Positions 6,046-28,319 of a DNA stretch of 28,680 nucleotides are shown piece by piece. Source of the stretch: a virus. Both the position numbers and the translations under genes were made by a program. Every line of letters starts with the position of its first letter. Within the stretch, counting starts at the first letter, position 1. A model generated the notes under the pieces. It saw nothing but the letters and a program-made list of their open reading frames with translations. It had not been told where the DNA came from and ran no database searches. The stretch lies in the IMG/VR virus record IMGVR_UViG_3300025626_000101, positions 1 through 28,680 of that record; one strand, 5' to 3'.

Positions 6046-6049
6046 ATGT

Positions 6050-6072
6050 ATAGTCCATTATTAAAAGGGAAC
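6050..6072 (+). promoter_or_regulatory. Candidate phage RNA polymerase promoter P2
   Basis: Second copy of the AGTCC-N2-TATTAAAAGGGA element, -17 to +6 with +1 at 6067. It starts five bases after the stop of the upstream gene. The predicted leader GGGAACGCTATTTCCC folds into a 5' hairpin and is followed by TAGAAAGGAA and the ATG at 6098. This arrangement is very like the T7 gene 10 leader (GGGA...TTTCCC...AGAAA). It would drive the nucleotide-metabolism and replication genes. Confidence 0.7.
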
Positions 6073-7318: not shown

Positions 7319-7761
7319 TGAAAGACGATTATGTTTATACCGCAGGTGCAATGGAGCACGTTAGTATTTCAGATATGAATAACTGGCGTGATTACGTAGA
7401 AAAATGTTTGGATGAATGTGACATTAAATGTTTACATCCTACAAGACGTACACCTATTCACGATCAAGAAGCGGATGATGGTATTTCTACTTACAATAAA
7501 CTTAAACGTATCACAGCTCAAGACTTGCTAGATATAAAGAGATCTCGAGTAATCCTAGCGGATTTAAGAGACTCTATGCCTGGAAAAAAATGGGGTACGG
7601 TTATGGAAGTAGCTCAAGCTTATCATTGGGATAAGGTTATAATAGCACTTGTAGATCCTGATCAGTTTAAACATCCATTCATTTACACTTATGCTACAGA
7701 AGTACATTATGATTTACAGGATGCAGTTGATTCTGTAATAGAGTACTACGATGGAGTATAA
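7318..7761 (+). CDS. Nucleoside 2-deoxyribosyltransferase-like protein, 147 aa
   Basis: The Rossmann-like pattern of this family is visible: a first strand leading to YTAGAM (7-12), a helix with IKRSRVILADL ending at D82, then W-G-T-V-M-E97-V in which the Glu is at the place of the catalytic nucleophile, followed by AYHWDKVIIALV. Such enzymes cleave or transfer the N-glycosidic bond of deoxynucleosides or deoxynucleotides and act in salvage or in clearing modified nucleotides. Length is typical. It overlaps the next gene by 11 bases. Substrate cannot be predicted. Confidence 0.75.
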   Translation: MKDDYVYTAGAMEHVSISDMNNWRDYVEKCLDECDIKCLHPTRRTPIHDQEADDGISTYNKLKRITAQDLLDIKRSRVILADLRDSMPGKKWGTVMEVAQAYHWDKVIIALVDPDQFKHPFIYTYATEVHYDLQDAVDSVIEYYDGV

Positions 7762-8236
7762 AGACCTAAAAGTTTTAATAGACTCGGGTAGTAACCATGA
7801 AGATCAAGGTCACTGGATTAGTAATAACCCTATTATTCCAGTGGGCCTTCATGGTTTTGTTTATGCTATACATAATATCCTTGATGACAAGTACTATGTA
7901 GGCAAGAAAAACTTTTTACACGGCGGTAAAAAGAATTATAAAAGAAAGGGGGTTAAAGTACCTAACTATAAGTATGGTACTGAAACTAATTGGAAGACCT
8001 ATACAGGTTCTTCAGCCGAACTTAACTTAGATATAGCTAGAAATGGTATGGATAACTTTTCATTCTTAGTATTAAGGTTATATCAAACTAGAGGCGGACT
8101 ATCTTATGGTGAAGCTAATCTACAACATAAGTTAGACGTATTAACAATGAAAGATGATGATAATAAAGCAAAATTTTATAATGGTAACATTGCTGGTATT
8201 AAATTCATCCCTAAAGAGACAGGAAAACCAACATGA
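7751..8236 (+). CDS. GIY-YIG-type endonuclease, 161 aa
   Basis: G35-F-V-Y38 and K47-Y-Y-V-G51-K-K give a degenerate GIY...YIG pair. WKTYTGSS and a helix lead to DNFSFLVLRLYQ and then SYGE121, matching the conserved catalytic Glu of this superfamily. It resembles stand-alone phage nucleases of the Seg type. It lies where T7 has its endonuclease I (between the ssDNA-binding protein and DNA polymerase genes), and no gp3-like resolvase is visible, so it could be either a homing-type nuclease or a functional replacement. A separately encoded HTH protein follows with an ATGA overlap. Confidence 0.75.
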   Translation: MEYKDLKVLIDSGSNHEDQGHWISNNPIIPVGLHGFVYAIHNILDDKYYVGKKNFLHGGKKNYKRKGVKVPNYKYGTETNWKTYTGSSAELNLDIARNGMDNFSFLVLRLYQTRGGLSYGEANLQHKLDVLTMKDDDNKAKFYNGNIAGIKFIPKETGKPT

Positions 8237-13544: not shown

Positions 13545-13546
13545 TT

Positions 13547-13569
13547 GAAGTCCATTATTAAAAGGGAAT
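13547..13569 (+). promoter_or_regulatory. Candidate phage RNA polymerase promoter P3
   Basis: Third copy of the AGTCC-N2-TATTAAAAGGGA element, beginning three bases after the primase-helicase stop; +1 would be 13564. GGGAATACCC gives a short 5' hairpin (GGG/CCC, AATA loop). The RNA polymerase start codon at 13575 follows after only 11 bases, so the leader is extremely short. It is placed to let the polymerase boost its own gene. Confidence 0.6.
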
Positions 13570-13574
13570 ACCCA

Positions 13575-16034
13575 ATGGAAGATAACATGAAAGACCCTCT
13601 GAATGAAGTGGTGGATTATCTAATAACTAAAGTTTCTAGTGTAAATATGAATAACCCTAAAGCAAATAAGGGTGCTCAGATATTACGTACTATAACTAGC
13701 TTTAAAGAAAGCTTACCTAATATAGTACAAGTAGCTTTCGATAAGATGTCCTCTAACTTTACAAGAGAATATCCTGAACAACCCATAGGTCTAGCTAAAG
13801 TTACACAAGTAAGTACGGGTATTGGTGAACATGTATTCACTAAATACTTTAACGCTAAGTGTAGCTTTCACCAGTCAATAAGAACAGGTGATCTCGTGCT
13901 AGAAGCCTATGTACAATCAGGTTTTATTACTGTTAAGAGAGCAGAAGGCTTTGGTGCATACAATGCACAAGCACCTTATATGATTGAACCAACTTCTCGT
14001 TGGGAAGAGATAGGTGAGTTTAAGCTTATCGAGAGTAAAGGATTACTCGTATATACAGTAGATGAAATACCTGAAGACATAAGTAATATAATGCAACCTA
14101 AGAATTATCCCTTAATAAAACGATGGGGTATCTCTGCCCCTCAAGAGCAGAAGGATGCATTCAATAATACTTATATTAACTCTGCCTTTGTTCGTGCAGT
14201 AAATAACTTACAACAAACTTCATGGAAAATAAATCCTAAAGTATTATCTGTATTAATAGATAAGCTTGAAGATATACTACCAGAAGATACTCCAATGTAT
14301 GAACATGCTATACCTAAGTCAGTGCTTAAGACTGCATATGAGAAGTATCAAAAGAAACCCTCATTTATTAATAAGCAAGCGTATAATACTATAGCTAAAG
14401 AATGGGAAAAGACGTTAAGACCTTTACAGGTAAGAGCTAAACGTGCAGAGATAAAGACTACTCTAGGTAAAGCTAAACAACTAGCTGAATGGCCTAAGTT
14501 TTACTCACTAGTAGATCTAGATTACAGAGGTAGAGTGTACTATAAAGAACCTTATATGAACTATCAAGGTAACGATATGGCTAGAGGCTTAATGTCCTTC
14601 AGTGAATCAAGACTAATAGATAGTGAAGGTAAGAGAGCTTTAGCTATACATACTGCTAACTCATATAATGAAAAGTATGACGTAGATAAGATACCTGGTT
14701 GGGTAGAAGAAGACTACTATAATATGTTAAACAAAGAAGGCATAGATACTATAAGTGTAGATAAGTTTTCACTTGAAGATAGAATAAACTGGTTTAATAA
14801 TAACTGGGATCTCATTGAAGACACTGCTAATAAAGGTATACTACATAATTGTGAAAAACCTGTGGTGTTCTTAGCTTGTTGTTTAGAATGGTGTGATATA
14901 GCAGACATGGAAGATGCAGGTGAAATGCCTACATCAAGTATACCTGTAGCTATTGATGGTACTTGTAACGGATATCAACACTCAGCTGCACTATCTAGAG
15001 ATAACAAGACAGGTAACTTAGTAGCACTACAAGATAGTGAAGTGCCACATGACTTGTATGTTAAGGTAGCTCAAAAGATAGTAGAGTTAGCACCTGAATT
15101 CTTTGTAAACAGACCTATGTCTTATGCAGAGATACGTAAGTTAATCTCTAAGAGAGCTACAATGACAAGAGCCTACTCTGCAGGTGCACAAACAATAGCG
15201 GAGTCTATGTACTCTGATTGTGTACAAGCTGGTGCTGATGAACAATATAATATAACTCAAATTGATTGTGATGAATTAGCTCCACATATACTTAAGGCTA
15301 TTGAACATGTATGTCCTGGGTCCCAGACAACAATGAAGTTCCTACAAGACTTAGCGCAATGGGAGCTAGGTACTTTCGAGTATCAAGACCCTGATGGTAA
15401 AAAGATATCTAACTCTGCTATAAGTAAGTTAAAGAAAGAAGCCCGACAAGCTAACAAAGAACAAAGAGCTAATCCTACTGTAGAAAACACACTAGCTTTA
15501 AACAAAATTAACTCTAAGTTAGCTGAATGTAAACTAGTGTTAGTCAAAGGTTATGCGGGTGATGATATTAGATGGATGACTAAGTCAGGATTCCCTGTAA
15601 TATACAAGGTTAATGCTACACGACAAGACACTTGTAAGTCTACCTTACGAGGAGTAATTGGTGGCGCATCTAAACAACCAGGACGTATTAACCATGTAGC
15701 TAAGATATACTTAGATACAACAAACAGAAGAGAAGCTAGCGCAGGTATCTCTCCTAACTACATTCATTCACAGGATGCTACTCACATGGCATTAGTGATA
15801 GATAAATTCGGTATCAACTTCGGAGCAGTACATGATAGCTTTAGTTGCCATGCCTCTGATGTTGAATTATTAAAACAAATAACACAAGAAAAATTCGTTG
15901 AGATGTACAGCAACGATAACCCCTTGGAAGCAGTTAAAGATTGTATAACACATAACAACTGCACCATAGAAGTACCAAAGCTCGGTGACCTAGATATATT
16001 CGAAGTCATTGGTTCACGTAACTTCTTTTCATAG
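13575..16034 (+). CDS. T7-type single-subunit RNA polymerase, 819 aa
   Basis: Numbered from the ATG at 13575, the hallmarks are: D316-Y-R-G-R320-V-Y, then MNYQGNDMARGLMSF; motif A VAID461GTCNGYQH; motif B K526-RATMTRA-Y534; HSQD734ATHM; motif C VHD754SF; and an aromatic C-terminus NFFS like the T7 FAFA foot. Length is near T7 gp1 (883). It would transcribe from the three promoter-like repeats and probably the late genes. Unlike T7, the gene lies after the replication genes, as in phiKMV-like phages. After Y534 it has Ser instead of the usual Gly. A TTG at 13545 in frame was rejected because it would sit inside P3. Confidence 0.95.
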   Translation: MEDNMKDPLNEVVDYLITKVSSVNMNNPKANKGAQILRTITSFKESLPNIVQVAFDKMSSNFTREYPEQPIGLAKVTQVSTGIGEHVFTKYFNAKCSFHQSIRTGDLVLEAYVQSGFITVKRAEGFGAYNAQAPYMIEPTSRWEEIGEFKLIESKGLLVYTVDEIPEDISNIMQPKNYPLIKRWGISAPQEQKDAFNNTYINSAFVRAVNNLQQTSWKINPKVLSVLIDKLEDILPEDTPMYEHAIPKSVLKTAYEKYQKKPSFINKQAYNTIAKEWEKTLRPLQVRAKRAEIKTTLGKAKQLAEWPKFYSLVDLDYRGRVYYKEPYMNYQGNDMARGLMSFSESRLIDSEGKRALAIHTANSYNEKYDVDKIPGWVEEDYYNMLNKEGIDTISVDKFSLEDRINWFNNNWDLIEDTANKGILHNCEKPVVFLACCLEWCDIADMEDAGEMPTSSIPVAIDGTCNGYQHSAALSRDNKTGNLVALQDSEVPHDLYVKVAQKIVELAPEFFVNRPMSYAEIRKLISKRATMTRAYSAGAQTIAESMYSDCVQAGADEQYNITQIDCDELAPHILKAIEHVCPGSQTTMKFLQDLAQWELGTFEYQDPDGKKISNSAISKLKKEARQANKEQRANPTVENTLALNKINSKLAECKLVLVKGYAGDDIRWMTKSGFPVIYKVNATRQDTCKSTLRGVIGGASKQPGRINHVAKIYLDTTNRREASAGISPNYIHSQDATHMALVIDKFGINFGAVHDSFSCHASDVELLKQITQEKFVEMYSNDNPLEAVKDCITHNNCTIEVPKLGDLDIFEVIGSRNFFS

Positions 16035-16590: not shown

Positions 16591-16624
16591 TACCCCCAAA
16601 GTACTATTATGTACTATGGGGGTA
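16591..16624. terminator. Bidirectional intrinsic terminator between converging gene blocks
   Basis: A 14-base inverted repeat with one mismatch: TACCCCCA...AGTAC at 16591-16604 pairs with GTACT...TGGGGGTA at 16611-16624 around a TATTAT loop. On the plus strand it is followed by TATTTAAGTTT; on the minus strand by the more T-rich TAATTTTATTTTATC. It fills the only gap between the plus-strand replication block and the minus-strand late block. Confidence 0.85.
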
Positions 16625-16631
16625 TTTAAGT

Positions 16632-19600
16632 TTAAGCAGGCACCATATGAGTTATCTCATTAGATGCTCCTACTAATTGATTAATTACATTATTATCAGA
16701 TGAAGAATTTCTAGTCATAGTGTTAAGTAAACCACTTGTTGTTAAAGTAGATCCTTCACCATACTGAACATTATGTCTAGCCATACTATTTTTAGATGGT
16801 TTAATATCAAAAGGTAATTTTCTGTAAGCTGCTTTTAAAGATGGATGAGCTTGTTCACCTCTATATAATAAACCAGAACTACCTCTCATTATATCTACTA
16901 AAGCAAGAAGATCTTTCCCCTCAACTCTATTAAATTCCCTATCTTTAGCATTAGCTTCAGTAGGAGGTAACCAACCATGATTACCTGCAGCCTCTAATAT
17001 AGCTTTATTTCTTAGATTACCTTTAATAACACCTTTTCTTTTAGATTCACTTCTAGCTAACTGATAAGGTTCAAACATAGTAGAGGTTCTATTATTGTCT
17101 ATAGATAAATCAGGATCTTCTACTATAGCTTGAGAATCTGCACCATAAACATTATCATACATCTTATCAAAGTAACCAGTAAGCCCATGGAAAGAATTAT
17201 TATTGTTCTCTTCACCTAAGAATCTCGTTCCTATATTAGCTCCTGTTTTACCGTATTTATCTTTAACTTCATTTAATCTTTCGTTATAAGTGTTAACTAC
17301 TTTAGACATCATACTTGGAGCTTGTGCAGCAAAAGCTGGTATAGCTATGTTGTTATAAGCATTTATAGCTAACAAGTGACCTTCTGCTCCTGTTATTAAA
17401 GCATCATGTATAGCAATAGCTTGTACTGGGTTACCTTTAAATCCACCATCCGGACTATTCATAGCTAACATAGCTAAAGTCATTATAGTAGAGTCTCCAC
17501 CTTGTATAACATCAACAGGCCAGGAGTTTCTTTGTTTAGTTCCAGGTCTATACTGGTAAAGCTCTTCACCTTCTAACCTAGCATCAGCTGCTCCTGCGTA
17601 GTCTGTTTGAATAGTACCTCTAGGTATATTCATACCTGCTATTCTATCTGTTTTAATATTAAGGCCATCTACTACTTGATCATTAACACTTCTCTCTAAC
17701 TCTGGAGAAATATTACTTGCAGATAATTGTTGAGTACCTCCAAACATATTAGTTATAGTAGAAGGAGCATTAATAGCTGCCATAGCAGTACCTAAAGCTC
17801 TCATAGCAGTTTGATAACCATTAAGTTTACTCATGTGTTTTTCCATAGAGTAAGTATACAGGTCTGTCATATCATTAAGCATACGCATATTATCACCTGC
17901 ATACGTTGCTCTTACTTCAGCCCAAGCTTCATTTAATTTAGGATTATTAACTGCTGCTTTATTTATTTTGCTAAAGAAATCCTCGGCTTCTGAATACATT
18001 TTTTGAGCTATTTTACCATAAAGACCTGCCACAACAAGCCCTCTAGAATAATCTTTAGCAGCACCAACTTTTCCTCTTGCTTCAGTTAAAGAATTAAATA
18101 AATCAGCCCAAACTTGTTTATAAGGACCATCATCTACTGAAGAAAAAGTCAGTTCAATATCTTGATCTATACTGTTATATATCTGTTCACGTAAGCTTCC
18201 GTGCATTTCTTTATTATCATCTAATATATCTGGAATCAAACCTAAGATTTCTGCACTACCACTATCACCTATAATAATAGATATTAAACCTGCGTTAGAC
18301 TGTCTAGCATCAGACTCCATCATGTTTTGTAATCTAATATGTTGACCTTGAGGTGTAACTGATATTTGATATGCATCTATTAATACAGAACTTGGATATT
18401 GCCATTCACCTTTTTCTGTCATCCAAGGATTATTACTTGCAAAATCATCTAACGTATTATTGTTATTAGAATCTATTAATTGTTTACCTAAGACAGAGGC
18501 TTTACTTAAATTATTAGAACCAAAGTTAATATAATCTAAAGGAACCCATTTAGATAAAGGTTTATTATTTAAATTACTTCTAGAGAAATTTTTTGCAGAA
18601 GCAGGATCAATATGCTTTGCCATTTGTGCACCAAGATTATAATAGAAATTAAGAGCTTGATATTTAGCAGGATCACTAGACTTAAGGTTATACAACTTTC
18701 TTTGTATTGCTTGCCCACGAGAAATACCTTTAAGCCCTTTAGTTTCAAGGTATATTTTTCTAGCCTCACTAACTACTGCAGGTGCACCTAAAGACCACAA
18801 CCCTGAATTATTATCTATTCTAATAGGTTGTGTTCCTTCAAAATTAAAAGAAGTTCTTGTAGTACCTTTCTGATTCATAATACTAAGGTTATTAGATATA
18901 TGGAAGTATCTTAAGGTAGCAGGAGATTGTTTAGTTATTAAATAGCTAGGCATGTTTTCAGTAGACCTAACTTGTATATCATCCATTTCCTTTTTTAATT
19001 GACCCATTTTTTGCTGTATTATTTTTTGAGCCTTTTCATTTCCGTGTTTCTTAATTAACTTCTCTTTATAAACAGGGTCTAACTCAGATAGTGTGCTTTG
19101 AAAAGGACTATTATTATCAATTCCTTTTGTTAAACTACTATACATTTTTTGTTGCATAGAATAAAGTACAGGGTTAACACCAATAGGTATACTTCCTTGT
19201 AATTGCATAAAAGTCTCAGCAGCATTTGTAGATTTAACAGATCCTTTTTTATCCATAAAAACTTTTTTTACTGCATCACTTAATACGCTTTCAGTCATCG
19301 CAGGAAACTTAGGTGCTTTAAGACTAGTAATAACTGAACTTCTGCTAGACACATCATACACATTAGCTATTTTTGCAGCTGAAGCCATATTAAGAGTTAA
19401 TTGATCACCTAGTAAAGGTATTACTTTACCCTTTTTACTTCTAGCCCACTTAATTTGACCTTGATCTGTAAGATCTTTAATGAAGGTCATAGCGTTATCT
19501 CTAGTTCTTTGTACATCAAATGAACTAGGTGTTTGTCCTTCAGGTGTAGATAACCTAATCATATCATCAGTAACAGAAGTTACCATTTGATTTAACATAG

Positions 19601-20363
19601 GTTCTCCAGATTCAAATACTTCTTTAACTGGATTATCAATTCTATTTTTTAAAGGTATTTCTTTTTCTGCACCAATATCTGTATCATAATCATCCATAAA
19701 GTCTGTCTTAGCATCTTCTATGGTATTCATAGTATTTAAAAATTTTCTATTATTTATACCATGTAGTAAATTAGCACCAGCTACAGTAAGAATAGGTTGT
19801 GTAGATACTCTAGCTTCTTCTTGTAAAGGAGCAACATTACCTAATTGCTCTGCCCAAGCAGAACCTTTCACGTTAAATCTATTAACTAAAGTATTACCAA
19901 AATTAATAAGAGCAGCAGCATCATCTGCATCATAATTTATTTTTTGTAAATTATTTTCTGGAGCTGCTACAGACTCTACTTGTTCTTGTAAAGAAGTTTT
20001 TAAAATACCTTGACTTGGTTCTCCTCTTTCATTAAACATCGAAGGAGGGGTACTTGGTGTAGCTATTTGTGCCTCAGTAGATCTGTTATATTCTTGTTGA
20101 TTACTTATTATTTGTTCAGGAGTAAGTAAAGCTTGTTGTTCTACTCCTACATTATCTGTAGGTGTATTTGCAACCAAGGCACCTACTCCAGCACTTTGAG
20201 GTGCTACAGCAGGTACTTCATTACTAAGATTAATATTATCCATAATGTCATCTGTACTACCATATACTGGTTGTGCTAGATTTTGTTGTATATTAGGATT
20301 ATATTTTGGTTGTACGGGCTTTCCATCTGTCGGAAGCCCAACTTGTTGTTGTATATTCAACAT
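16632..20363 (-). CDS. Candidate virion RNA polymerase (N4 vRNAP-like), 1243 aa
   Basis: It lies at the 3' end of the late operon among internal virion proteins, so it is probably packaged. About the first 140 residues are Pro/Gln/Asn-rich and look disordered. Divergent single-subunit polymerase motifs then follow in order: MNQKG (496-500) with R503, like the stretch after DxxGR; motif A S-D685-ARQSN; motif B K770-x3-R774-x7-Y782-G783, with the T7 R627/K631/Y639 spacing but K and R exchanged; IQGGD957STIM, aligning with HSQDATHM of the T7-type polymerase in this window; and motif C IAIH986-D987-AL. D685 to R774 is 89 residues (T7: 94). The GR of DxxGR is not visible. Alternative: an unrelated ejection protein. 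Confidence 0.7.
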   Translation of the reverse strand: MLNIQQQVGLPTDGKPVQPKYNPNIQQNLAQPVYGSTDDIMDNINLSNEVPAVAPQSAGVGALVANTPTDNVGVEQQALLTPEQIISNQQEYNRSTEAQIATPSTPPSMFNERGEPSQGILKTSLQEQVESVAAPENNLQKINYDADDAAALINFGNTLVNRFNVKGSAWAEQLGNVAPLQEEARVSTQPILTVAGANLLHGINNRKFLNTMNTIEDAKTDFMDDYDTDIGAEKEIPLKNRIDNPVKEVFESGEPMLNQMVTSVTDDMIRLSTPEGQTPSSFDVQRTRDNAMTFIKDLTDQGQIKWARSKKGKVIPLLGDQLTLNMASAAKIANVYDVSSRSSVITSLKAPKFPAMTESVLSDAVKKVFMDKKGSVKSTNAAETFMQLQGSIPIGVNPVLYSMQQKMYSSLTKGIDNNSPFQSTLSELDPVYKEKLIKKHGNEKAQKIIQQKMGQLKKEMDDIQVRSTENMPSYLITKQSPATLRYFHISNNLSIMNQKGTTRTSFNFEGTQPIRIDNNSGLWSLGAPAVVSEARKIYLETKGLKGISRGQAIQRKLYNLKSSDPAKYQALNFYYNLGAQMAKHIDPASAKNFSRSNLNNKPLSKWVPLDYINFGSNNLSKASVLGKQLIDSNNNNTLDDFASNNPWMTEKGEWQYPSSVLIDAYQISVTPQGQHIRLQNMMESDARQSNAGLISIIIGDSGSAEILGLIPDILDDNKEMHGSLREQIYNSIDQDIELTFSSVDDGPYKQVWADLFNSLTEARGKVGAAKDYSRGLVVAGLYGKIAQKMYSEAEDFFSKINKAAVNNPKLNEAWAEVRATYAGDNMRMLNDMTDLYTYSMEKHMSKLNGYQTAMRALGTAMAAINAPSTITNMFGGTQQLSASNISPELERSVNDQVVDGLNIKTDRIAGMNIPRGTIQTDYAGAADARLEGEELYQYRPGTKQRNSWPVDVIQGGDSTIMTLAMLAMNSPDGGFKGNPVQAIAIHDALITGAEGHLLAINAYNNIAIPAFAAQAPSMMSKVVNTYNERLNEVKDKYGKTGANIGTRFLGEENNNNSFHGLTGYFDKMYDNVYGADSQAIVEDPDLSIDNNRTSTMFEPYQLARSESKRKGVIKGNLRNKAILEAAGNHGWLPPTEANAKDREFNRVEGKDLLALVDIMRGSSGLLYRGEQAHPSLKAAYRKLPFDIKPSKNSMARHNVQYGEGSTLTTSGLLNTMTRNSSSDNNVINQLVGASNEITHMVPA

Positions 20364-20369
20364 TTTATT

Positions 20370-23300
20370 TTATCTCTCTTTATTAGCTTTGTTTAACAAT
20401 TCTATTAATGGATCTTTAGTTACAGAAAGGCTACCTATAAACGGTAACATTCCTACTGCTCTTTCAGCAGATCTTTCCCCTCCAGCATTGAAGGCTTTTA
20501 TATCTGATTGCATAACACCTAATGAAGGTGCTATTCCAGCTGCTTCTAAGGTACTAGCCATTATAGCATTGTCCCCGTCTACTGCAGCTTTAGCTCCTTT
20601 ACTCCATATACTATTTAACTCTTCTAACAATAACTCAGGTGTACCTAAGAAACCAGTATAGTTAATTGCTCTATAAGTAGCTGATCTGAAAAATTCTTCA
20701 TCTTCATCTTCAATCCACTCAGGAGTCTCACCATAAGTAACCATATCTTTAAATGCTTGAGCTAAGTAAGCAGTCATAACAATAGTTATAACAGAACTAA
20801 AGGTATTATAAGAAGTACCTGGAGGTGCTGTCTTAATATAATTGTTCCATAGATTAGGGGTTATATTAGCTGTAACGTGAGCTAAAAACCTTTTAAATTG
20901 ACTGAAAGGTCTAAACACTTCAGATTCAAATATAGCTGGCGTAGAACCTGGTTGAGGTCTTGCTGAGAATTCATCAGTAAAGTTTATTTGAGCCAACCTT
21001 ATTTGTTCTGACAAGAAAGAAGCATCATCAATATTTTTACCTGTTGCTTCTATAATATCTTCGTTTAAGTCACCATACTTTTTAATCATAGTAATTAATT
21101 TATCTGGATCTAAACCGTAACTATTAAGTCTATCTCTAGACCAACGACCTGTGTCAGATATTGTACCTGCTTCTGTATCTACTCTTACTTTCTCTAATAA
21201 TTTACTTACAGAGTCTAAAGCAAAACTCATACGAGCTCCACGTATAGCATTAGTTTGTGCTGATACTAAGTTAAGCTTATAAAATATCTTCATAGTCTTT
21301 TGCATAAAAGGAGAAGAAGTGTTAACACCTTCTGTATACAAGATATCGTTAGCAGTAACAACATGACCTGATTCTATTAACCTAGCTAAATCTTTATTAC
21401 CTAGATCTCTAACATCTATAGGTGTATAAGGTAAACCTAGTTCTGCTGGAACAGAGTAATAGTCCGCAGTAACACCTTGTAAGAAAGCTTTAGTTGCTCT
21501 ACCTAAATATTTTACTTTATCTTTACCAGATAAACCTATCGTACCATAAAACATTTCACCCACGTTAGCAAAAGCATTCATGTCCATAAGTCTTAAAGTA
21601 GTAGTAGTAATTAAAGTGTTATTTACTGCTCTTAAATAAGGATTATCTACTTTCTGATAGCTCTTTTTATAGATAGACATAAGATTAGTTGACCAAGCTG
21701 TAAGATCGTTAAAAGTATTTTCATCAATTTCACCTTCAAACTTAGCTTGATTTAATAAATAAGCTATACTTGAACCATCTCTACCAAATCTATCTGTTAA
21801 AACAGAATCAGATATAATTCTATCTGCTGTATTTATTATTGCAGATAAAGTATTTTTTGTTTCATACTTATCTCTGAATGATTTAGTATTAGCTAAAGGT
21901 GTACTACGTAACATTTGTAAGTCTTGTAATTGAGAATTATTATTTTTAATCCCATCAGCAATAGTTGTTGCATACTCTCTACTTATATTAATTCTATTAG
22001 AACCTAGTTGAGCTGGCTGACCTATCAAGTCATTAATAAAAGATTCATCTATCGTTTTAGAGTCGAAAGAATTTAGTGCAAGTAAAGCACCTTCCTCTCT
22101 TATTTGTTTAGCAGTTATTAAACCACTATCACCTGCTTGTTCTACTAGTCCAGCAACCACATCAGATACATAATCTATATCGTCACTCAATTTTTGTTTA
22201 GCATCTACTTGTTCTTTAGTTAGTAAAGAATTATCTGTTTGTAATATAGTTTCAAACTCAGATATATTCTTAACATTTAAAGATTTAAATGCTGCATTAA
22301 GAGAAGGTAGTTTGTTAGTTATTTGTCCTCTTTGATAATCAATTTCAGAGTTAACATTAGTTCCTATAAATATAGCATCTCTATTTATTAAGCCCATAAT
22401 AGTTTGTATATTATTATTGGCCTCTCCATTTTCTTTAAATGCATACTTATTTAATTTTCTATCTGTAGCTCTAAAAGCAGACATAGGGTCTTTTAAAAAC
22501 CCTTTAAAACTTTTCTTAACATTTTGTTTAGTTGTTAAAGGAGTACTACTAAGTCCTTGTGTATTTTCTCCTTCTGCTTTCCTTCTTATTTCTTTAGATA
22601 CAGCCTGAACTGATTTTTTATCTCCACCTGATCTCTGTCGTTGATACTCTTCTATCTTACTAATAACATTACGTTTGTTAGTCTCAGGCGAATATTGAGC
22701 TATGATAGCATTAACATCATTTAATGTTTCTAATCCACCAGTAACTCTTCCTTGCATTGCAGCATCAAAAGTTCCACCAACAAGACCACCAGCTGCAGCG
22801 TTACGAGTAACATCTTTGGCTAACTCAGTCCAGTTAATTGTTTCAGAAGTTAATGCGGCTACACCACCTTGAGCTATTATTTCTTGTAAGCCTTCAGTAA
22901 CAGCCTCCCTGCCTGCAGCTCTAACAGAAGTTCTAACAAAGCTTTCAAAGCCTTGTCGTTGTAACATTTGTTTTTGTGCAAATTCTTGTAGTGTTTTACC
23001 AGTACTATTTAAAGTGTTAGCCATATGCTTCTTAAGTTGAGATTCAGCTAATTCTTTTGATATACCTTTTTCGTCTACTATAGACTGTACAAACAAGTCT
23101 TTACCTTCCTTAGTAAGAATATTTTTACCTGCAAGTCCAGCACCTTTTAAACCAAATGCATCTACAGTACCTACTGCAAGAGCTAATCCTGCTGCTTGGT
23201 GAGGATTCTTTTCTCCTTCAGGCATACTTTGATATATCTGTCCTACTGCTAAAGAGAAACCAACACCAATAGATCCTGTAATACCACCTACTACTGCTCC

Positions 23301-24461
23301 TGCTGGACCAGCTACAACAGCACCACCTGCTGCACCTGCTTTACCACCAGCATATATTAAAGCTAGTTGAGGTGCAAACTCTATTACTGTTTCTGTTGCC
23401 CATTTAAAAGCATCAGCAGGACCTCTTATATCAAAAAGATCTACTGAAGTATTTATACCATTGTATTTTTTATTAACATCATCAGCCCAATCTTCACTCC
23501 AATTTTGATAAGACTCACTATTAACTAGGTCACCAGACCATATATTAAAAGTAGCAGCAGAGCTTTCTAGATTAATTATAGAGCGTTTACTAGCATTAAC
23601 CCAACCAGCAAATGTACCAGGGTTTTCTCTAGCTCTTCTACCTACATTAGCTTCTATCTGTTGTTGTGAACCATAAAAAGGATTATCATAGTTAGTATTT
23701 ACCTGAAGCATTTCAGAAGCTTTTTTATGTTGTTCTTTAGCTAACTCTCTGGCTTCTTTATCCATGCTAGGATCATTAATAATTCTCTCTAAAGATTTAA
23801 GTTCAGCTTTAATAGCGTTACTATAACCTCTTGACCCGAATATTAATTCATCTGAAGTATCAGCCATAGTTCTAAACATAGTAGGGCTTTGAGATACAAT
23901 GCTTTCTACTACCTCACTTGCTTGCTGATAAGGAGTTAAGGCTTTCTCACTACCATTAAGCCAGGCCATGTCTCTGTTAATACCTCGCTTAAGAATAAGG
24001 TCATATTGTTTTTCTTGTACACCTTCACCCAAGTACATTGAAGGTTTAACTATATTTTCTGTTATTAACTTTTCAGAAAACCTTTGTCCAGCTGCATTTT
24101 CAAGATCACCTATTTGTCTACCATAAGGATCTTTCTCTCCTGTAATAACTATTTTATTAAAACCTTGAGATTGAGCTAGTTTATTTATTTCTTCAAATTG
24201 AGTTGATCCAGCATAAGACCCCGCAGAAAATGTTCCATCAGGAGTTATCTTAGCTGTTTCACCTGCATCTCCAAACCCAAATCTAACACTACCTTTATTA
24301 CCTGATGCATCAGTATAAGCTACAGTATCTCCATCAATAAGATTACCTGTAACTTCAGTACCATTTAAATCAAATGTAGTAGTGTTAGTTGGTTTGTTAA
24401 TTAAGTCTATACCTGTAGTAGAGACAACATCAGTTATTTCTGGATTCTTTAAGTCAATCAT
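20370..24461 (-). CDS. Internal virion protein with N-terminal SNase-like nuclease domain, 1363 aa
   Basis: Residues about 36-145 match a staphylococcal-nuclease fold with every active-site residue present: D43-G-D45-T46, V-R60-F, G-D65-A-G-E68 and D111-P-Y-G-R115, spaced nearly as D21, R35, D40, E43 and R87 of the enzyme. A long Gly/Ala-rich hydrophobic region follows (about 363-446) and another hydrophobic stretch lies near the C-terminus (SSVITIVMTAYLAQAFKDM). The rest is long and helical. Size, hydrophobic segments and position match T7-type ejection proteins that enter the host envelope. AAGGAG precedes the start. The nuclease could act on host DNA or RNA at entry; this is inferred. Confidence 0.8.
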   Translation of the reverse strand: MIDLKNPEITDVVSTTGIDLINKPTNTTTFDLNGTEVTGNLIDGDTVAYTDASGNKGSVRFGFGDAGETAKITPDGTFSAGSYAGSTQFEEINKLAQSQGFNKIVITGEKDPYGRQIGDLENAAGQRFSEKLITENIVKPSMYLGEGVQEKQYDLILKRGINRDMAWLNGSEKALTPYQQASEVVESIVSQSPTMFRTMADTSDELIFGSRGYSNAIKAELKSLERIINDPSMDKEARELAKEQHKKASEMLQVNTNYDNPFYGSQQQIEANVGRRARENPGTFAGWVNASKRSIINLESSAATFNIWSGDLVNSESYQNWSEDWADDVNKKYNGINTSVDLFDIRGPADAFKWATETVIEFAPQLALIYAGGKAGAAGGAVVAGPAGAVVGGITGSIGVGFSLAVGQIYQSMPEGEKNPHQAAGLALAVGTVDAFGLKGAGLAGKNILTKEGKDLFVQSIVDEKGISKELAESQLKKHMANTLNSTGKTLQEFAQKQMLQRQGFESFVRTSVRAAGREAVTEGLQEIIAQGGVAALTSETINWTELAKDVTRNAAAGGLVGGTFDAAMQGRVTGGLETLNDVNAIIAQYSPETNKRNVISKIEEYQRQRSGGDKKSVQAVSKEIRRKAEGENTQGLSSTPLTTKQNVKKSFKGFLKDPMSAFRATDRKLNKYAFKENGEANNNIQTIMGLINRDAIFIGTNVNSEIDYQRGQITNKLPSLNAAFKSLNVKNISEFETILQTDNSLLTKEQVDAKQKLSDDIDYVSDVVAGLVEQAGDSGLITAKQIREEGALLALNSFDSKTIDESFINDLIGQPAQLGSNRINISREYATTIADGIKNNNSQLQDLQMLRSTPLANTKSFRDKYETKNTLSAIINTADRIISDSVLTDRFGRDGSSIAYLLNQAKFEGEIDENTFNDLTAWSTNLMSIYKKSYQKVDNPYLRAVNNTLITTTTLRLMDMNAFANVGEMFYGTIGLSGKDKVKYLGRATKAFLQGVTADYYSVPAELGLPYTPIDVRDLGNKDLARLIESGHVVTANDILYTEGVNTSSPFMQKTMKIFYKLNLVSAQTNAIRGARMSFALDSVSKLLEKVRVDTEAGTISDTGRWSRDRLNSYGLDPDKLITMIKKYGDLNEDIIEATGKNIDDASFLSEQIRLAQINFTDEFSARPQPGSTPAIFESEVFRPFSQFKRFLAHVTANITPNLWNNYIKTAPPGTSYNTFSSVITIVMTAYLAQAFKDMVTYGETPEWIEDEDEEFFRSATYRAINYTGFLGTPELLLEELNSIWSKGAKAAVDGDNAIMASTLEAAGIAPSLGVMQSDIKAFNAGGERSAERAVGMLPFIGSLSVTKDPLIELLNKANKER

Positions 24462-24482: not shown

Positions 24483-27400
24483 TTATTTTGGTTTATTTGC
24501 ATAAGCAGTAAGCAATGATAATGCCATAAATGTTGATGGAGCAGAATCTACTTTAGCCTTTTGACTATCATTTAATTCACTATATAATGGTACAGCTTTA
24601 ATAGTATCTATAGTCATGTCAGGTGTAAACTGAGTTGCAGCTGTATTCATAGTAGTTGTAATTAAATTTCTATCGTTACCTAATATGTCTTGGAAGTCTG
24701 AAGTAAAAGATTTAATCTTAGAAGGAGCAACTAACTCTCCGTCTTTACTAATTTTATTTTGATCAAATAAAGTATCGCCACCTACAACTTGCATGTCAAT
24801 TATAGTTTCAGCATTAATTTTTGTAATACCCATTGACTCAGCTAACTCAGCACCTCTACCTACCATTTGCATTATATCAATTGGATCATCACGTAAACCA
24901 AGTTCTCTTTGTTTTCTAGCATAAGCCATAATATCAGCTGTTACACCTTCTTGGCTTCTACCTGAGAATATACCTGCTTCACGATATACATTCTCTTCTT
25001 TATCTATACCTTCTCTTTTAAACAATGCGGCAGGCATTTGTTCTACATAAGCTCTTACAGCAGATAAACGAGAAGTATCATCATCTTGGTCTCCTCTTAT
25101 TCTTAACTGACCCATTTCTGCTGAAGAAATAGGTTTGTAAGTTTCTACTTTCTTACCATCTTTTTCTGTAACAACTTTAGTATAACGATTACCACCAGCA
25201 CCCTCAAATACTTCTATAGCAGTAGTATAACCTGGTATCATATAAAAATCACCTGCTGCATTAGCATCAATACCTAGTTTACCTCTTGTAGTTTTACTAT
25301 CAGGTCTAGCCATAAGTGCCTGTGCTTCTACTAGCTTACCTTCTGTAAGTAACTTAGTTATCTTAGAACCTGCTTCAGGAGTATAGTTACCTCTCACTTT
25401 AGCAAATGCAGTAAGAGTAGCATCTGCTTTCTTAGAGTTAAGAATATTTCTATTTTCTGCTTGCTTAAGTACAGTTCTACCAGCCCAACGCATAGATCCT
25501 TCATGTGAATAACCTGCTGCTCTTGAGGCTAAATAAAAACCTATAGCACGAGTTACATCTGATGTTTCTAAACCAAAGAATGTTTGTAACATACCACCTA
25601 CTTGTTCTTTAACACTATTAGGTGTATTTTTATTTATCTCATTATTTTCTTGAGAATTAAGGTCTGTATTTTTTCCATTAGGTAAAATAGCTGTAGTATT
25701 ATCTTTAGGGTCTATTTCTTTAGATTCATCTGCAACAGTAACATTTTCTTTTATTATAGGTACTTCCTTATTAAGATCAAGATTAAGATTGTGTTCTTTA
25801 TATTTATTAAGATCTTTAGCATATGATTCTTCTGCTCTATTTTTATCTCTTATCTTTTTTCTGTTTTCCCAATCATCTTGAAACACTAAATTTGTTTCAA
25901 TTTCTTTTTGCCTAGCAATTTCTGTTTTTACATTGTCTAAAGTTTTTAAAGTTGAATTACTAACAGCACCATCTTTTTGTAATTCTTGGTTAGCCATATC
26001 TTGAGCATTAGTATAATCTTGGTTAACTCTTTTCATTATTTCTTTTTGAATCATAACAGAATCAACATCACCTTGAACATTGTTAACTAGTATTTTTAAT
26101 TGATCTATATCCATTTCATCTAAAGTTAATCCAGATGGTATATGAATACCTTTTGAGTCAAATAAACTAACAGTATTATTTTCAGGAACATACATTGAGT
26201 CATTACCTGGGGTTGGAAATTGCTCCGCTAAAGGTATAACTGAAGGTCCTGCATTATATCCAGGTGGCACAGCATTAACACTAGTTACCACAGGTCCTGC
26301 ATCGTATCCAGGAGGTACTGCATTAACACTAGTTCCTACTGGTCCAGAATCATATCCTGGTGGAGTTGCATTAACAACCATTGGTATTGGTTGTTGACTA
26401 TAACCTGCTTGAGGGTCTCCATAACTACCATCTGCTATACTATTATCTATAATAGACTGTTTTAAACGCCTAGCTTGTTCTACATCGGCATATTCTGTAG
26501 GTGGATTTAAGCTAATTCCTTGATTTGTATAATCATTTACACCTAGTTTTATAGGAGCAGATATTATTTTTTCATCAGGAAGTTTAGGTACAGCTGGAGC
26601 ATTTCTTTGTGCATTAATTTGTGCAGCTTCCATTATAGCTTTTTCTTTATTTTCTTGATCTAAAATATTTTTGTCTAAAACAGAATTAATAATTTCTTGT
26701 TCTTGTAGCATTTGATTTTGTTGCTTAACTACTTCTGGAGTAAAATACTTACTAAAGAAATTAGAAATAAAGTTAGACCCATCTTTATATCCAGGTACAC
26801 TAGTAGTACCGCTGTTAAATCCTAGTTCTTCCAATTTAATACCTTGAAAAGGAGGTACACCACTACGATCACCAGGAACGTCTGCAACTCTAGGGGGTAC
26901 TGTTGGAACGAACTCTTCTCTGGGAAACATTGGTTCAGCTACTGCTGGAACCTCTTTAGCAATATCAGTAGTATACTTATTACCATTCCATTCAAATACA
27001 CCACCATCACCACCATGTTGTTGTCTGGCTTGACTAAATGCTTGACCAAAACTTTGAGGTTGAGGTACTTCTTGTTCTTTAATAGATAAATTGTCTGGCC
27101 TTAACTGAGGAATATTTGGTTGTTGTAAATTTTCAGGTCTCATTTGAGGCACACTCTTAGTTAATGATAGAGGTGAGGGTTTAGAATAATTAACTAATTT
27201 CATTTTTAATTCTTCATTACCAAAAGCAGGTGTTTCAGTAAAGGCATCATAATATTTAGTTCCTAATGTGCCAAAACCATCTTTACCTTCTATTCCTGTG
27301 TTTAACCAATTACTTGCTCCACCGGCACCTTGGTTGTGTGCATAAGCTAACACACCCATTTGTTGATCTGTATTCATTTTAGCAAACTTAGGATTTTTCA

Positions 27401-27653
27401 TTAACCTTTTATAATTTAACTTAGTAAACTTAGTTAATGCTTTTTCTTGCGCTTTAGGATCATTTCTAAAAGATTCTCTTTCTTTAGGTGTGTGACCTAT
27501 TCCAATATCTTTTTTGGCTATTTCACCAAATTGATACTTACCATCATAGTCGTCATTAAAGCCACCTATAATATTGTAAGTATTACTGCTTTCAATATTA
27601 CCTAGTTTTTGTTTATAGGTTTCCCATAAGTTACCTTCAAATATACTACTCAT
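24483..27653 (-). CDS. Internal virion protein with N-terminal transglycosylase-like domain, 1056 aa
   Basis: The first 150 residues look like a lysozyme-fold muralytic domain: LGNIE21SSNTY, GGFNDDYDGKYQFG (30-43), then MGVLAYAHNQGAGGASNWL. E21 is the likely catalytic acid. A long Pro/Gln/Asn-rich middle contains a 16-residue tandem repeat (about 426-470) and coiled-coil stretches, and a helical region from about 690 (FFGLETSDVTRAIGFYLASR) begins the C-terminal domain. In T7 the transglycosylase is on gp16; here it is on a protein of similar role. It would open the peptidoglycan during DNA entry. The start has GGAG upstream. Confidence 0.75.
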   Translation of the reverse strand: MSSIFEGNLWETYKQKLGNIESSNTYNIIGGFNDDYDGKYQFGEIAKKDIGIGHTPKERESFRNDPKAQEKALTKFTKLNYKRLMKNPKFAKMNTDQQMGVLAYAHNQGAGGASNWLNTGIEGKDGFGTLGTKYYDAFTETPAFGNEELKMKLVNYSKPSPLSLTKSVPQMRPENLQQPNIPQLRPDNLSIKEQEVPQPQSFGQAFSQARQQHGGDGGVFEWNGNKYTTDIAKEVPAVAEPMFPREEFVPTVPPRVADVPGDRSGVPPFQGIKLEELGFNSGTTSVPGYKDGSNFISNFFSKYFTPEVVKQQNQMLQEQEIINSVLDKNILDQENKEKAIMEAAQINAQRNAPAVPKLPDEKIISAPIKLGVNDYTNQGISLNPPTEYADVEQARRLKQSIIDNSIADGSYGDPQAGYSQQPIPMVVNATPPGYDSGPVGTSVNAVPPGYDAGPVVTSVNAVPPGYNAGPSVIPLAEQFPTPGNDSMYVPENNTVSLFDSKGIHIPSGLTLDEMDIDQLKILVNNVQGDVDSVMIQKEIMKRVNQDYTNAQDMANQELQKDGAVSNSTLKTLDNVKTEIARQKEIETNLVFQDDWENRKKIRDKNRAEESYAKDLNKYKEHNLNLDLNKEVPIIKENVTVADESKEIDPKDNTTAILPNGKNTDLNSQENNEINKNTPNSVKEQVGGMLQTFFGLETSDVTRAIGFYLASRAAGYSHEGSMRWAGRTVLKQAENRNILNSKKADATLTAFAKVRGNYTPEAGSKITKLLTEGKLVEAQALMARPDSKTTRGKLGIDANAAGDFYMIPGYTTAIEVFEGAGGNRYTKVVTEKDGKKVETYKPISSAEMGQLRIRGDQDDDTSRLSAVRAYVEQMPAALFKREGIDKEENVYREAGIFSGRSQEGVTADIMAYARKQRELGLRDDPIDIMQMVGRGAELAESMGITKINAETIIDMQVVGGDTLFDQNKISKDGELVAPSKIKSFTSDFQDILGNDRNLITTTMNTAATQFTPDMTIDTIKAVPLYSELNDSQKAKVDSAPSTFMALSLLTAYANKPK
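26245..26378 (-). repeat. 48-base tandem repeat encoding a 16-residue Pro/Gly repeat
   Basis: Two full copies and a partial third of a 48-base unit within the 1056-aa protein gene. Each encodes VNA-[TV]-PPGY-[DN]-[SA]-GPV-x-TS. Copies differ mostly at silent or conservative positions, so the repeat is old enough to have drifted but keeps its peptide. It probably forms an extended flexible linker. Confidence 0.85.
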
Positions 27654-27662
27654 AATTAACTC

Positions 27663-28319
27663 CTATGACTGACTCATACTTAACATGGCTTTCATATCGT
27701 TATGAGTATACTTTTGTTCAAAAGCTTTTTGCTTCCTTGCTTCTTCTGCTTCCCAAGCTTTCTTTTTTAAAGACATATCTTGTAGCAATTTCATTTCTTC
27801 CCTCTGAGACTTACCTGACAAAGGACCCATCATAGGTTTTTGAGGCATTTCTTCTGTTAAATTATTAGCAACAGCATTAGCTTGTCTGCCTTCAGCAACC
27901 ATAGCGTTTATAGCTGGTTTATTATTAGGATTCTGTGCGGCTGCTGCTGGTATAACAGCTTCACCTGGAGTTAACATAGCAGGAACGCTATCAGTACCAC
28001 CAGCATAAGCCATGTTAGTACCTTGATTATAACCTACATAATTAGTTCCATTCATATAAGCTTGCAAAGGATCAGGACCATAGTCCATCTCAGGTACACC
28101 TGCTGTTCCATTGTTAAATAACATAGATACAAAGGGAGCTGCAGGACCTAGTGCTGTTCCAGCAAGAGCTTTGGTTGCCATACTGCTTATTGCTTTCTGC
28201 ATTAATTGATTAGTTAAGTTAGGACCTTGTTGAACACCTGGACCACCTCTAATGTAGTTAGGTCTAACATTCATTTCTTCTTCTGCCCTTCTTAAAGGGT
28301 CTTGAGATAAGAAGTTCAT
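27663..28319 (-). CDS. Virion protein with tape-measure-like motif (T7 gp14 position), 218 aa
   Basis: A hydrophobic Ala/Gly-rich helix (about 45-69, ISSMATKALAGTALGPAAPF) is followed by AYAGGTDSVPAMLTPGEAVI (104-123), a motif frequent in phage tape-measure and internal virion proteins, then NPNNKPAINAM. The C-terminus is a charged helix (REEMKLLQDMSLKKKAWEAE). It is the smallest of the core proteins and precedes the two very large ones, like T7 gene 14 before 15 and 16. The start overlaps the upstream stop (TAATG) and has a strong GGAGGT. Confidence 0.75.
   Translation of the reverse strand: MNFLSQDPLRRAEEEMNVRPNYIRGGPGVQQGPNLTNQLMQKAISSMATKALAGTALGPAAPFVSMLFNNGTAGVPEMDYGPDPLQAYMNGTNYVGYNQGTNMAYAGGTDSVPAMLTPGEAVIPAAAAQNPNNKPAINAMVAEGRQANAVANNLTEEMPQKPMMGPLSGKSQREEMKLLQDMSLKKKAWEAEEARKQKAFEQKYTHNDMKAMLSMSQS

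Follow-up and report, generated by a model that had tools for sequence, protein, structure and literature searches.

What does the large protein that closes the virion module of CRP-7-type marine phages do, and could it be an RNA polymerase carried into the cell with the genome? The window (the whole stretch of DNA analysed here, 28.7 kb) is part of such a phage genome, and a preliminary description had proposed that its last late gene encodes a virion-borne, divergent single-subunit RNA polymerase (RNAP) of the T7/N4 superfamily. Among isolates, only Roseobacter phage CRP-7 (MK613349, 58.1 kb) has a homologue of this 1243-aa protein; this podovirus infects a roseobacter of the RCA lineage (PMC6918029). 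Genes in the first 16.6 kb of the window run rightward and include a MoxR-like ATPase, PolA, a primase/helicase and a T7-type RNAP; those beyond 16.6 kb run leftward and form the virion module. The features of the region where the two modules meet are as follows.

13545-16034, plus strand: the phage's own T7-type RNAP (PF00940, 2e-59; phrog_414).
16591-16624, no strand assigned: terminator-like hairpin, bidirectional, where the convergent modules meet; conserved in CRP-7.
16632-20363, minus strand: gene of the 1243-aa putative compact virion RNA polymerase, orthologue of CRP-7 gp33.
19614-20363, minus strand: N-terminal segment of that protein (residues 1-250), poorly conserved and rich in N, Q and P.
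20370-24461, minus strand: 1363-aa late protein, probably an ejection or internal protein judging from its position.
24483-27653, minus strand: 1056-aa late protein with a lysozyme-like N-terminus (phrog_5867, 1.4e-26).
27663-28319, minus strand: 218-aa late protein, by position only a possible gp14-like ejection protein.

The open reading frame proposed for the 1243-aa protein was confirmed: it starts with ATG and runs through 1243 codons with no internal stop. Its place as the last late gene holds as well, since it ends the leftward module at the hairpin, across which the rightward module faces it, and the gene order around it is the same in CRP-7. The hairpin is strong and symmetric (-21.7 kcal/mol, z about -4.2 on either strand) and is probably a bidirectional terminator. 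The 1363-aa, 1056-aa and 218-aa products, encoded before the 1243-aa gene in the leftward operon, seem to resemble an ejection set. The T7-type RNAP, whose true start is likely the ATG at 13575, is presumed to be the second-stage enzyme.

Several other details of these genomes were seen on the way. The 1056-aa gene contains three tandem 48-nt repeats (26244-26387) coding for PPGYD-type repeats. A 161-aa protein encoded at 7751-8236 has a GIY-YIG-like stretch, GFVYAIHNILDDKYYVGKK, and its apparent counterpart, CRP-7 gp22, is annotated as an NAD synthetase, an annotation that looks doubtful. At 35552-38170 of CRP-7 (3397-6015 of L009), the annotation of a cobalamin-dependent ribonucleotide reductase is divided over gp44 and gp46, which the unrelated ORF gp45 separates; the gene may be split, or it may hold an intron carrying a homing-type insert.

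The 1243-aa protein is conserved over its full length in CRP-7 and, at identities as low as 43%, in marine viral contigs. Repeated scans of viral collections returned the same family members each time, and scans of bacterial genomes for relatives found none. We aligned eight full-length sequences: the window protein, six relatives (67-96% identity) and the most distant member, L043 (IMGVR_UViG_3300024343_000955; 43%). CRP-7 gp33 (QBQ72826.1) is a full-length orthologue (69% identity) with the same gene order, but it is annotated only as a 'hypothetical protein', and CRP-7 has been described with a single RNA polymerase, ORF30 (PMC6918029). The N-terminal region looks disordered, and residues 1-250 may have a role in packaging or ejection. 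The four highest conservation peaks, at residues 955-971, 775-791, 941-957 and 680-696 in order of rank, are the blocks around the proposed polymerase motifs. In L043 the T7-type RNAP across the hairpin is 95% identical to that of the window whereas the virion protein is 43% identical, a contrast that suggests module exchange or fast evolution on the virion side.

Profile searches of Pfam, PHROG and NCBIfam with the 1243-aa protein gave nothing significant, the PF00940 profile matched no family member at E values up to 10, and a sequence search of the PDB gave no match. One match to TIGR03007 (E 0.016) fell far under the cut-off of that profile and was taken as chance. AlphaFold2 reached a pLDDT of 34 on the single sequence and of 38 on an alignment of seven, too few homologues being available, and Foldseek of the latter low-confidence model against the PDB returned only E > 0.3. 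Because no library recognises the protein, we compared its family profile directly with two reference sets, 20 cores of N4-type virion RNA polymerases (vRNAPs) and six T7-type RNAPs. The motifs considered in this comparison are listed below.

18813-18908, minus strand: YFHISNNLSIMNQKGTTR...R515ID, residues 486-517, tentative counterpart of the DxxGR/TxxGR palm strand (R503).
18288-18317, minus strand: candidate motif A, E-S-D685-A-R-Q-S-N-A-G, residues 683-692, an E-x-D like E557-x-D559 of N4, on a conservation peak but weak in the position-specific scoring matrix (PSSM).
18015-18056, minus strand: candidate motif B (O-helix), K770-x3-R774-x7-Y782-G783, residues 770-783, with K and R exchanged, provisional.
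17811-17837, minus strand: HMSKLNGYQ, residues 843-851, whose conserved HMSKLNG lines up with FSKxSG of divergent vRNAPs.
17481-17510, minus strand: first half of motif C, VIQGGD957STIM, residues 952-961 (18.3 bits on the vRNAP profile; hhalign match).
17376-17420, minus strand: catalytic half of motif C, AIAIH986-D987-ALITG, residues 982-996 (PSSM, hhalign and pattern).

The best local profile alignment between the family core and the 20 vRNAPs falls on motif C, in register, with a score of 37.1; against the divergent vRNAP branch alone the score is 38.4, again at motif C. Column-shuffled family alignments reached at most 28.3 against the vRNAPs (mean 18.8, 250 trials; extrapolated p about 4e-4), and other protein families of the same phage scored 17-22 against the vRNAP profile. 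The genuine T7-type RNAP encoded here, combined with its CRP-7 orthologue and taken at like depth as a positive control, scored 31.5, also at motif C. In the PSSM analysis AIAIHDALITG scored 8.9-13.4 bits, and the two halves jointly gave p of about 2.5e-5 (extrapolated from 300 shuffles); the corresponding segments of L043 also score above every shuffle. The vRNAP pattern [QH][GS]xD...[HF]D[AG], including the candidate catalytic Asp, is thus present in the protein. By eye the closest motif C is that of Vibrio phage phi50-12, VQGMDATAMTLT...VHDAIGIG, next to IQGGDSTIMTLA...IHDALITG in the window protein. The motif C of the preliminary description (IQGGD957STIM and H986-D987) is therefore well supported, but it lies closer to the vRNAPs (27.2 bits) than to the T7-type enzymes (15.4 bits).

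The eight residues singled out beforehand, D685, K770, R774, Y782, G783, D957, H986 and D987, are all present, and the spacings given for them, 89 from D685 to R774 and 205 from Y782 to D987, were borne out. The loss of D685, Y782 or D987 in homologues had been named as what would count against a polymerase, and all three are invariant in all eight sequences, L043 included. Four patterns are unique family-wide, ExD at 685, [RK]x3[RK]x7[YF][GSA] at 782, [QHG][GST]x[DE] at 957 and [HF]D[ASG] at 986, and they occur in the right order with spacings within the T7/N4 range. The motif-C pair (957 and 986) arose in none of 20,000 column shuffles, a figure that is indicative only, since we knew the protein when we composed the patterns.

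For motif A, the single occurrence of E683-x-D685, its order and plausible spacing and its place on a conservation peak favour the proposed assignment, but the profile scores add no independent support (1.5 bits for the D685 block on the combined profile). A Glu two residues before the motif-A Asp is found in 20 of 20 vRNAPs and is absent from those T7-type enzymes whose motif A could be placed. Glu557 of N4 contacts the phosphates of the initiating nucleotide (PMC4496689), and E683 would be its counterpart.

Motif B is less clear. The candidate is unique, ordered and conserved, but neither the PSSM nor a forced global alignment supports it: Y782 scores -3.9 bits on the combined profile and also falls below zero on the vRNAP motif-B profile, and the forced alignment places Y782-G783 opposite a downstream FG segment of the vRNAPs. 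R-x3-K is invariant in the aligned vRNAPs and the family has K-x3-R; of the vRNAP form R-x3-K-x7-[YF]-[GSA], the protein holds only K770-x3-R774-x7-Y782-G783. The swap of Lys and Arg had been called unusual, and K-x3-R is indeed present, but half of the swap is not unusual because Lys likewise occupies the first position in the T7-type RNAP of the phage itself (RKLISKRATMTRAYS). Given the profile scores and the forced alignment, we therefore treat the exchange as a hypothesis, and a motif B read in this way seems to us evenly balanced between right and wrong. The T7-type RNAP itself has Lys for Arg at the first position of its motif B and Ser for Gly after the Tyr (RKLISKRATMTRAYSAG), and CRP-7 is identical there. 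We rejected an alternative motif B at residues 605-616 (PLDYINFGS), since L043 does not keep Lys605, the order with respect to motif A would be wrong and shuffles equal its score. The profiles do not support KGTTR503, the candidate for TxxGR/DxxGR, although it is invariant and falls on a conservation peak.

These comparisons make descent from a single-subunit RNA polymerase highly probable, and the N4 vRNAP lineage, not T7, would be the closer relative, because of the motif-C scores and because the candidate motif A has the E-x-D of the vRNAPs. In N4 the vRNAP is gp50, of 3500 aa, with a catalytic core (mini-vRNAP) at residues 998-2103. The 1243-aa protein shares with the vRNAPs of N4 and other Schitoviridae the two-part motif C, an E-x-D in its candidate motif A and an FSKxSG-like segment, and the nearest are those of a divergent branch, from Vibrio phage phi50-12 and Pseudoalteromonas phage pYD6-A. 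On the other hand, it has about one third of the length of N4 vRNAP and lacks the giant C-terminal part, it has K-x3-R for R-x3-K in the candidate motif B, its motif-C loop is 10 residues longer and TxxGR is not clearly seen. The phage, moreover, does not belong to the Schitoviridae and has a single-chain T7-type RNAP instead of N4 RNAPII. The large vRNAP has been called unique to the Schitoviridae and is giant, with about 3,500 residues (PMC12633501); at 1243 aa the present protein does not have that architecture with its N- and C-terminal parts. Because this architecture and the R-x3-K motif B are missing, we do not claim formal membership among the N4-type vRNAPs, and we regard the protein as a candidate relative of them, compact and divergent. 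T7-type RNAPs, including the phage's own, resemble it in motif order and overall spacing, and their HSQDA..HD parallels QGGDS..HD, but the protein has no PF00940 match and its gene is a late one of the virion module, not an early one.

The position of the gene resembles that in N4, where the vRNAP gene also ends a leftward virion operon, tail to tail with a rightward early operon, and shares its operon with two other ejection proteins (PMC12633501). Only this position points to packaging in the virion; polymerase activity, injection and an early-gene role are likewise proposed. On balance we consider it probable that the protein is an active, packaged, compact vRNAP of the N4 lineage outside the Schitoviridae. 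An unlikely reading, though the strongest competitor, is a large internal or ejection protein that plays a role like that of T7 gp16 and has no polymerase activity, its motif C being convergent or left over from a decayed polymerase. The gene does sit among large late proteins, one of them with a lysozyme-like domain, the invariant R-x3-K is missing from motif B, the profile scores of motifs A and B are close to zero or negative and the N-terminal region looks disordered. The protein is also similar to T7 gp16 and the podovirus ejection proteins in size and in its place among late internal proteins, and N4 vRNAP has itself been termed a gp16 analogue (PMC12633501). However, it has no transglycosylase domain, the lysozyme-like domain being in the neighbouring 1056-aa protein, and its motif C fits the vRNAPs better than does that of a genuine T7-type RNAP at like depth. 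Nor does the invariance of the candidate catalytic Asp, Lys, Arg, Tyr and His down to 43% identity suggest decay.

An active single-subunit RNAP that is made late, stays unpackaged and acts only within the infected cell would fit the failure to detect N4-type hairpin promoters in the early region, but its gene ends the virion operon beside ejection-type proteins, as in N4, and the T7-type RNAP already serves intracellular transcription, so that we regard this as quite improbable. Least probable of all is a family-A (PolA) DNA polymerase-like enzyme or another nucleotidyltransferase. IQGGDSTIM is superficially like IQGTEAILM of the phage's own DNA polymerase, and the motif C of PolA is also HD, but the HD of the 1243-aa protein is followed by Ala as in divergent vRNAPs and not by Glu (HDA versus HDE), and the phage already encodes a PolA polymerase. 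PolA as the source of the motif-C match was rejected, the profile comparison with four PolA enzymes giving a null-level score of 19.1 elsewhere in the protein.

The packaged polymerase favoured here would act before the T7-type RNAP, for which a likely set of promoters is visible.

1380-1401 and 6049-6070, plus strand: further copies of the 22-nt element TATAGTCCMYTATTAAAAGGRR.
13546-13567, plus strand: the 22-nt promoter-like element TATAGTCCMYTATTAAAAGGRR, directly before the T7-type RNAP gene.

In CRP-7 the element occurs on the plus strand at 2028, 7149 and 14766 and on the minus strand near 57210 and 38260, one of the minus-strand copies lying near the head of the late module. It is conserved on both strands within otherwise unalignable intergenic DNA and is probably the promoter of the T7-type RNAP. 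CRP-7 positions 1-2028, left of the first copy, hold genes without the element, and these are therefore left to the host enzyme or to a vRNAP. Sigma-70-like matches in this segment were not above shuffles (5 found, 9.2 expected). N4-type hairpin promoters were sought as short G+C-containing hairpins, which were not enriched in the window, a stretch that ends short of the extreme left end.

We propose that the 1243-aa protein would be a divergent single-subunit DNA-dependent RNAP, close in size to the N4 catalytic core plus a flexible N-terminal segment. The catalytic metals would be bound by D685 and D987, and the incoming NTP by K770, R774 and Y782 of the O-helix. Synthesised late, together with the proteins of the virion and of ejection, it would enter the particle in few copies, be injected into the cell along with the genome and there transcribe the left end so that the T7-type RNAP is made. 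With its own 22-nt promoters the latter would then replace it, and transcription from the AGTCCNNTATTAAAAGG sites would follow that of the left end. Taken as a whole, a scheme in which CRP-7-type phages start transcription with a packaged RNAP of one-third size and a Lys/Arg-exchanged O-helix, and go on with a T7-type enzyme that has its own promoters, is tentative and falls just short of an even chance.

If the proposal is true, injected polymerases of the N4 type would be wider than one family and could be much smaller than thought, and the compact form in the cultivated phage CRP-7 would offer a natural minimal form for questions of packaging, ejection and activation. It would also give a function to CRP-7 gp33, annotated only as hypothetical, and would account for how transcription starts in these abundant marine phages.
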